From: Ligilactobacillus ceti DSM 22408
GTDB taxonomy: Bacteria > Bacillota > Bacilli > Lactobacillales > Lactobacillaceae
Direction: 5' to 3'
NCBI RefSeq assembly: GCF_000423245.1
Contig: NZ_AUHP01000013.1
Coordinates: 1-64,000 of the forward strand
Length of the DNA stretch: 64,000 bases
The position numbers and the translations under genes are program-made. The notes under the pieces were generated by a model. The model did no database searches and had not been told where the DNA came from. It saw only the letters and a list, made by a program, of their open reading frames with translations. Shown in pieces: positions 54,425 to 61,159 of this stretch (positions are counted from its first letter, which is position 1; each line of letters starts with the position of its first letter).

Positions 54425-54471
54425 AAAAAGCTTTACAACTTATTTTTAATAATGAGTTGTAAAGCTTTTTT
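54425..54471. terminator. Bidirectional terminator between gpsA and the GtrA gene
   Basis: A 16-bp stem, 54425-54440 with 54455-54470, with A and T runs on the arms; it reaches the stop codon of the minus-strand gene. Confidence 0.92.
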
Positions 54472-54925
54472 ATTGTTGTTTTTTTAATGTTTTTTGTTTT
54501 AATTCGCGCCAAGAAATTTTTTCTGTTGTATGGAAAATAAACCATTTGCTGAAATAATAGTTTAAAATACCGACTAAAATTAAATCGATTACTTTAATTA
54601 AATTAGGGTAATCAACAATAAAGTGAACTCCGACAAACATAATGACAGTATCTAAAATAAAAGAAAATAAGCGGATATTTACAAAAGATAAAAATTCTTG
54701 CCATGTATCAGACCAGGAACGAAATTGGGAATGAAAGACATATTTTTTGTTAGTTATAAATGTGAAAATCATCGCAATGACGTAAGCAATTACATTTGAT
54801 ACTAAATAAAACATATTTAAATTTTCGGTTAAAATATGGAAAACAAGTAAGTTAATTAAACTTGCGAGCGTTCCATACAATGTATATGAGAGAAAATTAT
54901 GGTATTTTTTTAAAAGTTTATTCAT
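54470..54925 (-). CDS. GtrA-family membrane protein
   Basis: The 151-residue protein has four membrane spans and the GtrA pattern YTLYGTLASLINLLVFHIL, ITNKKYVFHS and NYYFSKWFIF. GtrA proteins are thought to flip polyprenyl-linked sugars for surface polymer decoration. No glycosyltransferase partner is adjacent. There is no ribosome site just before the ATG. Instead AAAGGAG lies 38 bases upstream, next to a GTG that opens a 14-codon frame whose TGA overlaps the ATG, so coupled translation is possible. Confidence 0.88.
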   Translation of the reverse strand: MNKLLKKYHNFLSYTLYGTLASLINLLVFHILTENLNMFYLVSNVIAYVIAMIFTFITNKKYVFHSQFRSWSDTWQEFLSFVNIRLFSFILDTVIMFVGVHFIVDYPNLIKVIDLILVGILNYYFSKWFIFHTTEKISWRELKQKTLKKQQ

Positions 54926-55154
54926 AAGAAAACTGAATGCTCAATGAGCGATACGAGTTTAGTCACTCCTTTCGTAGAGAGTGTAAAATTAAAGATTGAT
55001 AAAGATATTTTACAAAAGTAATATCAATCTGTATTCCGGACGTAATATGTTATATTTGAATTATACTAAAAATATTCGAATTAGACTACTATACAATAGG
55101 CTAGTGAATTGCGTATAATAAAAGTTACGGATTAAATTTTAATAGGTGAAGATA

Positions 55155-56543
55155 ATGGGAAAGTTAAAAACTAAATATATTACAAAAAGTAGTGAAAACC
55201 GTGAGCAAAAAAAATGGTGGGCGCTCCGCGGAATTAACTTTGAAGTTAATGAAGGCGAAGCTGTTGGCCTAGTAGGATTTAATGGTTCAGGTAAAGCAAC
55301 ATTATTAAAAATTTTAGCTGGACAAAGTGAACAAACAACAGGGTTTATTACATGTGATGATCCAATTAATTTTGCTAGCTTGTCCAATTTACAAGACGAA
55401 AAACTAACTGGTTTAGAACATATTAAAAAAATAATTCATCAAACTAAAATGGATGAATTTAAAGCAGATCATTTAACAAATGCAATTGTTAATTTTATGG
55501 ATTTAGGATATTGGGTTTACCAACCGATTGAAACTTATTCTTTAGAAATTAAAGCACGTTTAGTTTTAGGGATAGCATTATTTGTTGAACCAAAATTAGT
55601 TTTAATTGATGAAGTTTTGATGTTGTTAGATATGCCTTTTTATCAGACTGTTATTCATAAGATTCAAACGTTAAAAGATACCGGCGTGTCTTTTGTTATT
55701 GCTGATTCACGTAGTTTGGTTGTTGAAACATTATGTGAAAGAACATTATGGTTACAGTTTGGTCAAGCGCAAGATTTTGGACCAACATTAGATGTAGTGC
55801 AACAATATGAATATGTTAATAATTGGTTTAATGGTTTAACATTACCTGAAAAAAATGAATTTTTAGCAGTAAAAGAAAAAGAACAAGTTGATTTTGACAT
55901 CGATGATTTATATGAAGAATTTAAAGTTGAACAATTTAATAATGGATTTACACGTAAAGATGAACCGCATATGCGCCGACAATTTTATTTTGAACGTGGG
56001 GCTGATCCAATTGAACAAGCTAAAAAAATTCAAAAAACAAATGAACAAAAAACGAAACAAAAACCTGCCAAAAAAGGATTTAAACGATTTGTTTATACAG
56101 TGTTAACATTAGTTGTATTAGCTGCGGGAGGATTCGCAGGCTATGAAGCATATTTGAATTATTTTACAAAACCTGAGTTAACACATGAAGAAATCCAAAA
56201 GAAAAATGAATCTCAAGTCCAATCTTCCTTGAAAAAAGCTGATCATAAGTCAGCTACATCAAAAGAAGAAAGTAAAAAAGAAAAAGTGTCAACTAGTACA
56301 AAAGAGTCACAGAAAAAAGATTCTGCTAAAGAAGAGTCAAAAGTTGAGCCTGAAGCAACGAAAGAAAAAGAAACGACAGCTTCAACAGATGAAAATGTTC
56401 AAAAAATTAATGTGAACTCTGGAGACACTTTAGGTGGCTTAGCTGACAAATATGAAACAACGATTCAAAAAATTCAAGAGTTAAATCAAATGGGAGAGTC
56501 AGAGCAGTTGATTGCTGGTCAAACATTAAAAGTTCCCAAATAA
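55155..56543 (+). CDS. TagH-like ABC ATPase domain with damaged motifs, membrane span and LysM tail
   Basis: The 462-residue protein begins with an ABC domain most like TagH/KpsT teichoic-acid exporters (ALRGINFEVNEGEAVGLVGFNGSGKATLLKILAG). Walker A at residues 41-49 is GFNGSGKAT, with Ala48 where Ser/Thr should bind magnesium. The signature position reads YSLEIKARL instead of the TagH-type YSSGMKSRL, and the H-loop reads IADSRS rather than xSHS. Walker B LVLIDEVL is kept. A membrane span at about 312-333 leads to an extracellular Lys/Glu/Ser-rich linker and a C-terminal LysM domain (about 415-461), which binds peptidoglycan. No TagG permease is adjacent. The start is ATG 55155 after TAGGTGA. 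ATP hydrolysis seems unlikely; a structural or sensing role is inferred. Confidence 0.8.
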   Translation: MGKLKTKYITKSSENREQKKWWALRGINFEVNEGEAVGLVGFNGSGKATLLKILAGQSEQTTGFITCDDPINFASLSNLQDEKLTGLEHIKKIIHQTKMDEFKADHLTNAIVNFMDLGYWVYQPIETYSLEIKARLVLGIALFVEPKLVLIDEVLMLLDMPFYQTVIHKIQTLKDTGVSFVIADSRSLVVETLCERTLWLQFGQAQDFGPTLDVVQQYEYVNNWFNGLTLPEKNEFLAVKEKEQVDFDIDDLYEEFKVEQFNNGFTRKDEPHMRRQFYFERGADPIEQAKKIQKTNEQKTKQKPAKKGFKRFVYTVLTLVVLAAGGFAGYEAYLNYFTKPELTHEEIQKKNESQVQSSLKKADHKSATSKEESKKEKVSTSTKESQKKDSAKEESKVEPEATKEKETTASTDENVQKINVNSGDTLGGLADKYETTIQKIQELNQMGESEQLIAGQTLKVPK

Positions 56544-56579: not shown

Positions 56580-57932
56580 ATGCCTGATCCTGATAGTCAG
56601 TGGTTAATAATATTGATTTTAAAAGTTAGTGTGATCATTCTAAGTTTATGTTTAGGATTATTTGCGAGTTTGAGTTATGCAGTTATTACGAAGATCGGTG
56701 AACAAGAATTAAATCACTGGAAAAGTGATAGCGTAAAAATTCGTGCTAAAATTAATTTTTTAGGCAAAAATTATATTAAGAAAATAACATCTTTAAAAGT
56801 AGCCCAAGGATTTTTTACAATGATGGCCATTGTTATTTTAAATCAAACGTTGGAAGAACATATTTTAATGAGTCATCCAATTATTGTGTTTGTGATTGAT
56901 GTTATTTTGTATCTGTTGATTATTCGTTTGTTTACTCGACTAACCCAAAATAATCATAAAGTTAAATTGAACAAAATTGTTACTATGAGTAATGTTTTAG
57001 TCCGATTATTTTATCCAGTAGTTTCTGTAATGTTGAAAAATGAAGAAAATAAAACTGCTGATAAAAATGATGAAGTTCAAACACCAACGAACTGGACTGA
57101 TATTGTTGATTTAATTAAAGAAGGGCGTGCAACTGGCGAGTTAGATCATGATGAATTTGAAATGATTAATGGTGTGTTAACTTTACACGAAAAGATGGCG
57201 CGTGAAGTGATGGTGCCCAGAATCGATGCTGAAATGATTGATATTCAAAATGATAATCAACGTAATATTGATGATATTTTAGAATCACGTTATTCTCGTT
57301 TTCCAGTTTATAGTGAAGATAAAGACAATGTTTTAGGTGTTGTTCACGTTAAGAATTTAGCTAAGCAAGCATATGCTTCTGGTTTTGATCGTTTAACGAT
57401 TCGGAAATTATTACAACCAGCACTTTTTGTTCAAGAAACCATTACATTAGATGAGTTAATGTATAAAATGAAAGAAACACAAAATCAAATGGCAATCTTG
57501 TTAGATGAATATGGTGGTGTTGTTGGATTAGTGACATTGGAAGATTTATTAGAAGAAATTGTTGGTGAAATTGAAGATGAATCCGATATTCCTTTTGAAT
57601 CATATTACCGGTTAGCTGATAATAAATTTTTAGTTCGGGGACGGATGTTGCTAGTCGATTTTAATACCGAGTTTGGGACTAATTTAAAAATGAGTGATAT
57701 TGATACAGTCGCTGGTTTTATTATTGGTAAGAGTGAAACAATCCCAGAAGTTGGGCAAAAATTAACTGTTGAAACAGAAGACGGTGTTGTTTTAGAAACA
57801 TTAGAAGTTTTAGAAGATACGCAAATTACACGTGTGAAAGTAACTTTACCACCGAAATATGTGCAGCTCTTAAATGAAAAAGAACAAAGTAAATTAGAAT
57901 TACGCGATAAAATGGAAGTCGGATTAGAATAA
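56580..57932 (+). CDS. CNNM/CorC-type (hemolysin C family) membrane protein with CBS pair
   Basis: The 450-residue protein has an N-terminal membrane domain with about four spans (residues 8-145), a CBS-domain pair (about 195-320, MVPRIDAEMID..., SRFPVYSEDKDNVLGVVHVKNL, DEYGGVVGLVTLEDLLEEIVGEIEDE) and a C-terminal CorC/HlyC transporter-associated domain. The membrane part is unusual for a CNNM domain and short in the standard DUF21 motifs. The family is linked to magnesium efflux and not to haemolysis. It follows the LysM protein by 36 bases without a terminator. Confidence 0.85.
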   Translation: MPDPDSQWLIILILKVSVIILSLCLGLFASLSYAVITKIGEQELNHWKSDSVKIRAKINFLGKNYIKKITSLKVAQGFFTMMAIVILNQTLEEHILMSHPIIVFVIDVILYLLIIRLFTRLTQNNHKVKLNKIVTMSNVLVRLFYPVVSVMLKNEENKTADKNDEVQTPTNWTDIVDLIKEGRATGELDHDEFEMINGVLTLHEKMAREVMVPRIDAEMIDIQNDNQRNIDDILESRYSRFPVYSEDKDNVLGVVHVKNLAKQAYASGFDRLTIRKLLQPALFVQETITLDELMYKMKETQNQMAILLDEYGGVVGLVTLEDLLEEIVGEIEDESDIPFESYYRLADNKFLVRGRMLLVDFNTEFGTNLKMSDIDTVAGFIIGKSETIPEVGQKLTVETEDGVVLETLEVLEDTQITRVKVTLPPKYVQLLNEKEQSKLELRDKMEVGLE

Positions 57933-58011: not shown

Positions 58012-59589
58012 ATGAATAAAGAAAATTTAAAAGAAGCAGTTGAAAAAAGAAGAACATTTGCGATCATTTCTCACCCGGATGCGGGTAAGACAACGATTAC
58101 AGAACAATTATTACTTTTTGGTGGTGTTGTTCGTGAAGCAGGGACAGTTAAAGCGCGTAAAACAGGGAATTTTGCAAAATCTGACTGGATGGAAATTGAA
58201 AAGAAACGTGGTATTTCTGTTACAAGTTCTGTGATGCAATTTGATTATGCAGGTAAACGTGTCAATATTTTAGATACACCAGGACACGAAGATTTCTCAG
58301 AAGATACATACCGGACTTTAATGGCGGTTGACTCAGCAGTGATGGTGGTGGATTCTGCCAAAGGGATCGAACCACAAACGAAAAAACTTTTCCAAGTATG
58401 TAAAATGCGTGGTATTCCAATTTTTACATTTATTAATAAATTAGACCGTGATGGTCGGGAACCGCTAGATTTATGTAATGAATTAGAAGAAGTTTTAGGA
58501 ATTGAATCATATCCAATGAATTGGCCAATTGGGATGGGTAAAGGCTTAAAAGGTTTATATGATATTTATAATAAACGAATTGAGTTAACAACTCCGGATG
58601 AAAATGGTGATATCTATGTAGACTTAAATGAAGATGGTGAAATTGAAGGCGATCATTCATTAAAAGAAGATAGTATTTATGATCAAGTTTTAGAAGAAGT
58701 TGAATTAGTTAAAGAAGCTGGTAGTGAATTTGATGCAGATAAAATCGCTAAAGGTGAGTTAACTCCAGTCTTCTTTGGATCAGCTTTACGTAACTTCGGT
58801 GTGACAACATTTTTAGATGCTTATTTACAATTTGCACCAGCACCAGGAAGTCACATGACAGAAGCTGGGACAGAAATCGCACCAGCGGCACCTGAATTTT
58901 CTGGATTTATTTTCAAAATTCAAGCAAATATGAACCCACGTCACCGTGATCGGATTGCATTTATTAGAATTTGTTCGGGTGAATTTGAACGTGGGATGGA
59001 TGTTAATTTAAGTCGCACAGGCAAAAAATTACGTCTATCTAATTCTACACAATTTATGGCAGATTCCCGTGAAACATTAGAAAATGCGGTTGCTGGTGAT
59101 ATTATTGGTTTATATGATACAGGTAACTTCCAAATTGGTGATACAATTTATACTGGTAAAGATAAAATTCAATTTGAAAAATTACCACAATTTACACCAG
59201 AATTATTTGTGAGTGTTCAAGCTAAAAATGTTATGAAACAAAAATCATTCCATAAAGGAATCGAACAATTAGTACAAGAAGGTGCTGTGCAACTTTATCA
59301 AAGTTATAGTACTGGTGAATATATTTTAGGTGCAGTTGGTCAATTACAATTTGAAGTCTTCCAATTCCGGATGGAAAACGAATATAATTCAGAAGTAGTT
59401 ATGACACCAATGGGTAGTAAAATTGCTCGTTGGATTAATCCTGAACAACTTGATGAAAAAATGTCGAGTTCACGTAACTTGTTAGTGAAAGATCGTCAAG
59501 GAGCACCACTCTTCTTATTTGAAAATAAATTTGCAGAGCGTTGGTTTAAAGATAAATACCCTGAAGTTGAATTAACAGCTAAATTATAA
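58012..59589 (+). CDS. prfC: Peptide chain release factor 3
   Basis: RF3 is the GTPase that releases RF1 and RF2 from the ribosome after termination. The 525-residue protein has G1 HPDAGKTT, G2 RGISVTSS, G3 DTPGHEDF and G4 NKLDRDG, with the RF3-type C-terminal domain ([17 protein letters not shown]). It complements RF2 encoded at 3721. GTGAGG precedes the ATG. Confidence 0.97.
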
Positions 59590-60049: not shown

Positions 60050-61159
60050 TTAATGATGGGTAAATTTCAAATAGTTTTGTAAAGTCCAACCTTGCTCGTT
60101 GACTTTAAACCAGTTGAGACCATCATTTTCGATATAAGCTGTTAAAGTAACTTTAGTATCATGTGGAATGGTTGTAATACGTGCCCCAAAAGGTTTGTCG
60201 TATAAAGCTAAATCTTTTTGAGGAACATAGTCAATTTTTGCTTTTTGATTGATTTTGATTTGACCAGGTGTGTTTGGTAAATCAGTTAAAGTATGATTGT
60301 TGAAATGTGGTGTAGAAATTTCGGTAAATTTTGGATTTTCTAAAACCCATAAATTTCCACCTAAACAATGCCACCATTGATCATTTGCTAATTTTACTGA
60401 ACCAAATGTTTGCCAAACTGTAGTTTTTGCCAAAGTTACAGCAACTTGATTGCCATTGGGATTATCATAACAAGTTGTGAAATCGAGAATTTTGATATAT
60501 TTAATCACATCATCTACTTCTACCCAATCGGCATTGCGATAAAAATAAGTCACGAATTGTTGTTGGAGTTTAAAGGTGCCTGATACTGGACCTTTAGCTC
60601 GAACTAAAACGTAATCTGGAATGGTCGGAGAAGTTAATTGATAACTTTCATCCAATGTTCCTGTGATAAATTCAGGATCACGTAAAGCTTTGAAATTATC
60701 AACATCTTTACAGAAAAGCCAGATATTTCCGGCGATTTTTTTGGCATAAGTTAAAACGATAACACCATAAGGAGCCACGAATGAACGAGTGAATCCGGAC
60801 ATGTTGACTAAATCGTAATTTTTGAAATCATAAAATTTAAATTGAATTAAATCACCTTGACGACCAGAAATCAGTTGTGGTGAACAGAGTGCTTTTTTGT
60901 GTTCATCTTGATAAATAACTAAAACAGTTGCATTGATTTTTTTGATAGGTGTTTTTTTAGTTATTTTGACCTCAGTTTTGCTTGTAACAGTTGTTTGGAC
61001 TGCAGTTTGAGTATCTTTATGTATAATTTCTTTTTGGAAACGAGGTGTACCTGACTTGGTATGAACGAGTTCTTTGTGAGAAATTGGAGGATGAACAGGT
61101 TCTTTTTTGGCGGTGTTGTTTGTGCCAAAAACTTTTTTAATAAAATCAAATAATGCCAT
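60050..61159 (-). CDS. MucBP and SH3-like domain protein without export signal
   Basis: The 369-residue protein starts MALFDFIKKVFG, an amphipathic helix rather than a signal peptide, then a Lys/Thr-rich linker (15-76), a MucBP-like module (about 77-141: ATVLVIYQDEHKKAL ... VIVLTYAKK), a segment with weak similarity to the following part, and two SH3-like modules (about 219-277 and 308-366, the last ending WFKVNEQGWTLQNYLKF). GNIWLF and GNLWVL mark repeated units. No LPXTG, membrane span or lipobox is seen. AAAGGAGGAA precedes the ATG. The function is unknown; domains of this kind are usually extracellular. Confidence 0.7.
   Translation of the reverse strand: MALFDFIKKVFGTNNTAKKEPVHPPISHKELVHTKSGTPRFQKEIIHKDTQTAVQTTVTSKTEVKITKKTPIKKINATVLVIYQDEHKKALCSPQLISGRQGDLIQFKFYDFKNYDLVNMSGFTRSFVAPYGVIVLTYAKKIAGNIWLFCKDVDNFKALRDPEFITGTLDESYQLTSPTIPDYVLVRAKGPVSGTFKLQQQFVTYFYRNADWVEVDDVIKYIKILDFTTCYDNPNGNQVAVTLAKTTVWQTFGSVKLANDQWWHCLGGNLWVLENPKFTEISTPHFNNHTLTDLPNTPGQIKINQKAKIDYVPQKDLALYDKPFGARITTIPHDTKVTLTAYIENDGLNWFKVNEQGWTLQNYLKFTHH

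Follow-up and report, generated by a model that had tools for sequence, protein, structure and literature searches.

The closest described relatives of the protein analysed here are TagH and TarH, the ATPase members of the TagGH and TarGH exporters of wall teichoic acid. Excerpts of one paper on Staphylococcus aureus TarH (PMC11971408) provide the map of catalytic motifs that is used throughout this work, and discuss TarGH as a drug target. According to the same excerpts, the TarH signature reads YSSGM rather than LSGGQ, and TarH itself lacks the glutamine of the Q-loop; a Q-loop argument for inactivity was dropped for that reason. In the part consulted of a second paper, a tagH annotation is named in L. 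salivarius (PMC7716343), and a TagH with a LysM tail has already been published for Lactococcus lactis (Llmg_1623; PMC3738550, likewise an excerpt). A search of titles and abstract openings, with subscription papers and preprints outside its scope, found no literature on the degenerate TagH described below, here called pseudo-TagH (pTagH). On balance, we favour the view that pTagH is an ancient pseudo-ATPase that has become detached from export and that probably serves as a single-pass scaffold between membrane and wall.

The pTagH gene occupies 55155..56543 on the plus strand of the window, by which is meant the whole stretch of 64,000 nucleotides that was analysed (positions 1 to 64,000 of contig NZ_AUHP01000013.1 of Ligilactobacillus ceti DSM 22408; G+C 33.7%), and the genome from which it comes is 1.39 Mb in size and 99.33% complete. 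The start is taken as the ATG at 55155, ahead of which lies an AGGTGA-like ribosome site as judged by eye, while the mechanical open reading frame opens earlier, at GTG 55146. A promoter-like site (TATACA-18-TATAAT, 55090..55119, plus strand, 10 of 12 matches) precedes the gene, although the scan that produced it was weak, returning 32 sites against a mean of 28.3 in shuffled sequence. In its 462 amino acids, the product combines a degenerate TagH-type nucleotide-binding domain (NBD) with a juxtamembrane block, and these are followed by a single membrane span, a linker and a LysM domain. In Pfam, residues 24-154 match ABC_tran and residues 420-461 match LysM (56412..56537, plus; 1.3e-10). The structure model and a hydropathy scan both predict a single span at about residues 308-337 (56076..56165, plus), with Lys and Arg on its cytoplasmic flank in the predicted topology. 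On the cytoplasmic side lies the juxtamembrane block of residues 230-290, with a core from Y253 to P285 (55842..56024, plus), which was defined by alignment and is helical in the model. Beyond the span runs an extracellular linker with many Lys, Ser and Glu residues (56166..56393, plus), where pLDDT is below 50 at residues 361-411. The initial annotation had described a TagH-like protein with an ABC domain, a membrane span and a LysM tail, and this architecture is borne out by Pfam, NCBIfam, the model and hydropathy.

The top NCBIfam models for pTagH are both TagH, and it falls short of both cut-offs, with 145.1 bits where 538 are required and 121.8 where 320 are, so that the protein is not a TagH equivalog by score. 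When a profile of 25 pTagH members was compared with solved structures, Bacillus subtilis TagH (7dd0) came first at 1.4e-59, followed by the TarH proteins of A. herbarius (6jbh, 6e-54) and S. aureus (9cfl, 1.6e-53), and the Wzt NBD 6amx came next after these at 6.1e-46. Structure prediction, one of the checks proposed with the initial annotation, gave a model with a mean pLDDT of 82.9 that is closest to TagH: 7dd0 is its best fold match (Z 31.1, rmsd 1.7, 243 residues), and likewise in Foldseek, with the structural match list spanning mostly residues 1-237. The stretch before W22, in the gate-helix region, is shorter than the TagH N-terminus and dissimilar to it, going by sequence alignment alone. 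A tree was built from 72 rows (37 pTagH, 22 TagH and 13 others), and in it the pTagH rows form a single clade with support of 97/99. A further branch, supported at 90/100, separates pTagH, L103 and 15 of the 22 TagH rows from the seven remaining TagH and the Wzt-like NBDs; its bootstrap of 90 does not reach the customary 95, and long branches are seen for some pTagH rows, among them L180, L037 and L028. Taken together, sequence and fold argue firmly for descent from TagH/TarH. As part of the explanation favoured above, and at that same strength, pTagH would be an ancient, divergent TagH paralogue that was duplicated inside the Lactobacillaceae.

At a threshold of 1e-20, pTagH occurs in 25 of 26 Ligilactobacillus genomes, that of L. 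ceti included, and the sole genome without a match (G013) is 84% complete. It is also found in 14 Liquorilactobacillus genomes among the matches listed and, outside these two genera, in a single genome of a third, G055, where it sits at the usual spot with an intact TagH elsewhere. That spot is upstream of prfC, which we take to be peptide chain release factor 3 (58012..59589, plus, in the window), and the arrangement holds in all 39 relatives' loci (24 Ligilactobacillus, 14 Liquorilactobacillus and one of the third genus). The names gpsA, prfC, rlmD, DUF402 and AI2E are used here as presumed identities judged from the sequences, and the CNNM/CorC and GtrA labels rest on Pfam. Immediately downstream of pTagH in the window is a CorC_HlyC/CBS (CNNM-like) membrane protein (56580..57932, plus). 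Among the 24 Ligilactobacillus loci, the window order recurs for prfC in 24, for the DUF402 gene in 23, for gpsA in 22 and for the CNNM-like gene in 13. In Liquorilactobacillus, AI2E and prfC surround pTagH in 14 of 14 loci and the CNNM-like gene is there in 13, while gpsA was not found in any of the 14. Two further neighbours may be recorded: a GtrA-like divergent membrane protein (54470-54925) between gpsA and pTagH, there in 8 of 24 Ligilactobacillus loci, and a minus-strand protein beyond prfC (60050-61159) with 30-47% identity in many relatives and a C-terminal half that looks SH3-like by eye.

The constancy of prfC, which follows pTagH in 39 of 39 loci, could suggest a translation-linked regulator, and a cross-link-based model in the PDB bears the title IF2-TAGH (9a4o, title only). 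Against this, the DUF402, rlmD-like and AI2E genes of the block are also conserved, so that the link to prfC is probably plain gene-order conservation and the coincidence of the IF2-TagH pairing with this neighbour is probably just that. A role in translation is therefore considered very improbable.

pTagH departs from TagH in the catalytic motifs, which were compared between 40 pTagH orthologues (39 distinct) and 22 ordinary TagH. In the L. ceti protein, Walker A reads GFNGSGKAT at residues 41-49 (55275..55301, plus), with Lys47 kept and Ala48 replacing the Mg-binding Ser, and the H-switch position, located by alignment against TagH, is Ser185 (55707..55709, plus). The Walker A Ala (GKAT) and the H-loop without histidine had both been noticed from the sequence at the outset and are confirmed; Ser48 and the His are found in 22 of 22 TagH. 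The signature had been described as having lost its Ser-Gly-Gly core; it is indeed altered, to YSLEI at residues 128-132 (55536..55550, plus), but TarH has YSSGM there, so that the actual change is from SGM to LEI. Walker B was said to be kept, and Asp152 and Glu153 (55608..55613, plus) are both retained in L. ceti; this does not extend to the lineage, where the catalytic Glu is present in just 9 of the 40 orthologues and absent in 31, against 22 of 22 TagH.

Across the whole comparison, the motif losses hold in the 40 orthologues and the 22 TagH are intact. Both the H-switch His and the D-loop Gly158 are present in every TagH and in no pTagH. The Walker A Ser/Thr48 is retained in 19 pTagH and absent in 21, and the signature Gly131 is found in 31 of 40 (22 of 22 TagH). 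More widely, 37 positions fixed in TagH are retained by under half of pTagH. Ser/Thr48 and Glu153 occur together in only two orthologues, L014 and L037, of which the former has altered P-loop glycines and neither has the His, and no pTagH combines all three. Every member examined has thus lost catalytic residues. The P-loop Lys47 and Walker B Asp152, on the other hand, are present in 40 of 40 pTagH as in all 22 TagH, and invariance of these two residues with a His in 0 of 40 fits a protein that may bind nucleotide and not hydrolyse it. Parsimony, on a tree that holds 37 of the 40 pTagH and into which the scored columns also went, counts seven changes at Ser/Thr48, six at Glu153 and one at the His, so that losses (or regains) at the first two positions recurred. 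The simplest reading would be that the His went once, early, and that the remaining catalytic residues were eroded repeatedly.

Erosion of this kind raises the question of decay. Selection on pTagH is nevertheless strongly purifying between close pairs: in six of them, three of which lie among L030-L032 and are not independent, dN/dS is 0.01-0.10 at dS 0.23-0.61, and NBD dN is 0.000-0.013. These six belong to 12 closer-species pairs, of 26 in total, that all show dN/dS of 0.01-0.10, the other six at dS 0.90-1.22. The 14 distant pairs (dS 0.97-1.29) gave 0.36-0.73 near saturation and were set aside; all pairs of the window protein fall among the saturated ones (0.41-0.54 at dS 0.97-1.29), and the low values are those of other species. 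With catalytic residues gone and purifying selection persisting, pTagH has the sequence pattern expected of an ABC pseudo-ATPase, which would not hydrolyse ATP.

Strain decay had been named at the outset as the alternative that intact orthologues in close relatives would favour. No orthologue pairs an intact Walker A with YS[S/T]GM and none has the His, and the orthologues are degenerate in 25 Ligilactobacillus, 14 Liquorilactobacillus and one third-genus genome, so that strain decay is ruled out by the lineage-wide degeneracy together with low dN/dS and with reading frames that stay open over a long stretch in the 40 orthologues. A broader form of the idea is that the teichoic acid pathway was lost and that pTagH is what remains of it, in decay. 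The many missing catalytic residues would agree with this, as would the absence of the pathway's marker families in L. ceti and the finding that the profile match continues beyond two TAA codons in G006 and G007, a sign of recent tail shortening. This account is already contradicted, and we give it almost no credence: the open frames and the dN/dS of the six close pairs speak against it, the gene order is fixed, and G055 carries a degenerate pTagH together with intact TagH and TagG, so that degeneracy need not follow pathway loss.

Separation from export is indicated by what the genomes encode. The initial annotation had pointed to the lack of an adjacent permease, which is true of the locus and yet not diagnostic, since 12 of the 22 intact TagH are also without TagG nearby and all 12 of their genomes encode it elsewhere; it was dropped as evidence. 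These twelve (L181, L197, L198, L202-L205, L208-L211 and L213) are intact lactobacillar TagH with tagG unlinked in the genome. A TagG query matched all 18 of the genomes with intact TagH that were tested, whether the two genes were linked or unlinked, and these include by construction G023, from which the query was taken. It matched none of 17 pTagH-only genomes, namely G000 (the window genome), G014, G022 and 14 Liquorilactobacillus. The test took in 5 of the 26 Ligilactobacillus genomes (G000, G014, G019, G022 and G023), and the genomes of L201, L207 and L212, whose intact TagH adjoin TagG, lay outside it. Judged by these searches, the TagG partner is absent from the 17 tested pTagH-only genomes. 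More telling than the locus, the window genome has no PF01061 permease match anywhere, and it has no unlinked TagG and no second or better TagH, so the search for a second intact tagGH that had been advised for L. ceti came back empty and its pTagH has no TagG partner in the genome.

Three ordinary TagH of Ligilactobacillus (two in G023, one in G019) adjoin TagG and have TagB/F-family genes nearby. G000 and G022, by comparison, have no match to PF01061, PF04464 (TagB/F) or PF03808 (TagA), yet pTagH is kept, and these species seem to be without the usual wall teichoic acid route. It is conceivable that pTagH still takes part in exporting a wall polymer as the NBD of a different permease, either slow or hetero-partnered. 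In favour of this, a PF01061 match of some kind occurs in 22 of 26 Ligilactobacillus genomes, a TagA-family gene in 22 and a TagB/F-family gene in 15. However, G000, G005, G012 and G022 keep pTagH with no PF01061 match at E 0.001, these four being the Ligilactobacillus genomes in which another ABC-2 permease is excluded. The lack of the H-switch in 40 of 40 orthologues also weighs against export, as does the single match at 1e-40 in each of the 14 listed Liquorilactobacillus genomes, which means that no ordinary TagH stands alongside pTagH there. Continued export is thus regarded as improbable.

Just over half of the positions newly fixed in pTagH lie next to the membrane. Counting the start Met, 24 positions reach 95% fixation or more in pTagH and stay under 50% in TagH, and 13 of these fall within residues 253-285. 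The aligned stretch containing the block covers 77 columns with a mean column identity of 68% in 36 sequences. At 1e-8 the block was matched in 4 of 395 order-level genomes, a sample rather than a census, and all four are Ligilactobacillus; Liquorilactobacillus was presumably not drawn, being in the block model yet not among the matches. Such conservation could also be expected if pTagH were a purely structural relic, a passive tether from membrane to wall in which the NBD no longer binds nucleotide and the juxtamembrane block is the active part. The P-loop glycines are altered in L014 (NTASK) and L022 (NSSGK), and 12 different residues occupy P-loop position 48 across the 40 sequences. The invariance of Lys47 and Asp152 is not readily explained by a passive fold, and we consider a relic of this kind unlikely, though less so than continued export.

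A LysM match was obtained by Pfam in 21 of 25 Ligilactobacillus orthologues, L. ceti pTagH among them, so that a peptidoglycan link would be usual and not obligatory. The orthologues L030, L031, L032 and L037 are short (354-376 amino acids) and end soon past the membrane span, and L030 and L037, each scanned singly, gave no LysM match. Where present, the tail may well anchor pTagH to the wall.

On the pseudo-ATPase reading, a TagH paralogue would have given up ATP hydrolysis and polymer export and been kept as a single-pass membrane protein. Its NBD would still bind nucleotide through Lys47 and Asp152 with no turnover, the juxtamembrane block (Y253 to P285) would dock a cytoplasmic partner, and the LysM tail would hold peptidoglycan, the whole acting as a scaffold or as a nucleotide-responsive switch. 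The initial proposal, of nucleotide binding in place of hydrolysis and of a link from cytoplasm to peptidoglycan, is supported by the sequence evidence. A more specific and distinctly tentative version is a nucleotide-sensing transmembrane rod, in which the energy or nucleotide state is read in the cytoplasm and passed via the block to the wall-anchored tail. If true, this would make pTagH an ABC class found throughout the lineage and engaged in neither transport nor hydrolysis. Counting against the scaffold are the lack of any constant neighbour besides prfC, which encodes a translation factor and has no evident connection to it, the retention of both Ser/Thr48 and Glu153 in L014 and L037, and the four of 25 orthologues with no LysM match.

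Read in this way, pTagH would be a clear example from nature of an ATPase that has survived the loss of its exporter, for 17 of 19 tested genomes of Ligilactobacillus and Liquorilactobacillus are without TagG and the fold is kept without the complete catalytic set. It offers a testable model for the reuse of an ABC domain as a membrane scaffold. Knowing which "TagH" are probably not ATPases would also be useful for work on TarGH as a drug target, and pTagH genes should not be annotated as teichoic acid exporters, because L. ceti is without that pathway's marker families.

Set beside known systems, pTagH is most like TagH/TarH (7dd0, 9cfl and 6jbh), which provide its best profile and fold matches, and it differs from them in having no H-switch, a changed Mg-binding Ser and signature, no genomic TagG and a juxtamembrane block of its own. 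Wzt, the O-antigen export ATPase (7k2t and 6m96), is the second-nearest family by fold, with Z of 28.3 and 27.3; it is an exporter ATPase with the permease Wzm, whereas pTagH sits with lactobacillar TagH in the tree and not with the Wzt-like rows. Lactococcus lactis Llmg_1623 and the TagH proteins L038 and L040 share with pTagH the NBD, the membrane location and one C-terminal LysM, but in L038 and L040 the motifs are intact and TagG lies alongside, the Lactococcus protein having been compared by its domains. The TagH-LysM fusion is thus known already, and the pseudo-enzyme state is what differs in pTagH. In its working, the nearest parallel may be FtsEX, which, according to the part of the literature consulted, is an ABC complex whose task is signalling to hydrolases of the wall and not transport, and with which pTagH would share the order of cytoplasmic NBD, membrane and wall. 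FtsE differs in being an active ATPase whose membrane subunit is separate, and the likeness is one of working only, with no membership by sequence claimed. By this analogy, pTagH would not be a pump; it could be viewed as carrying out wall signalling of the FtsEX type with one chain and without hydrolysis.
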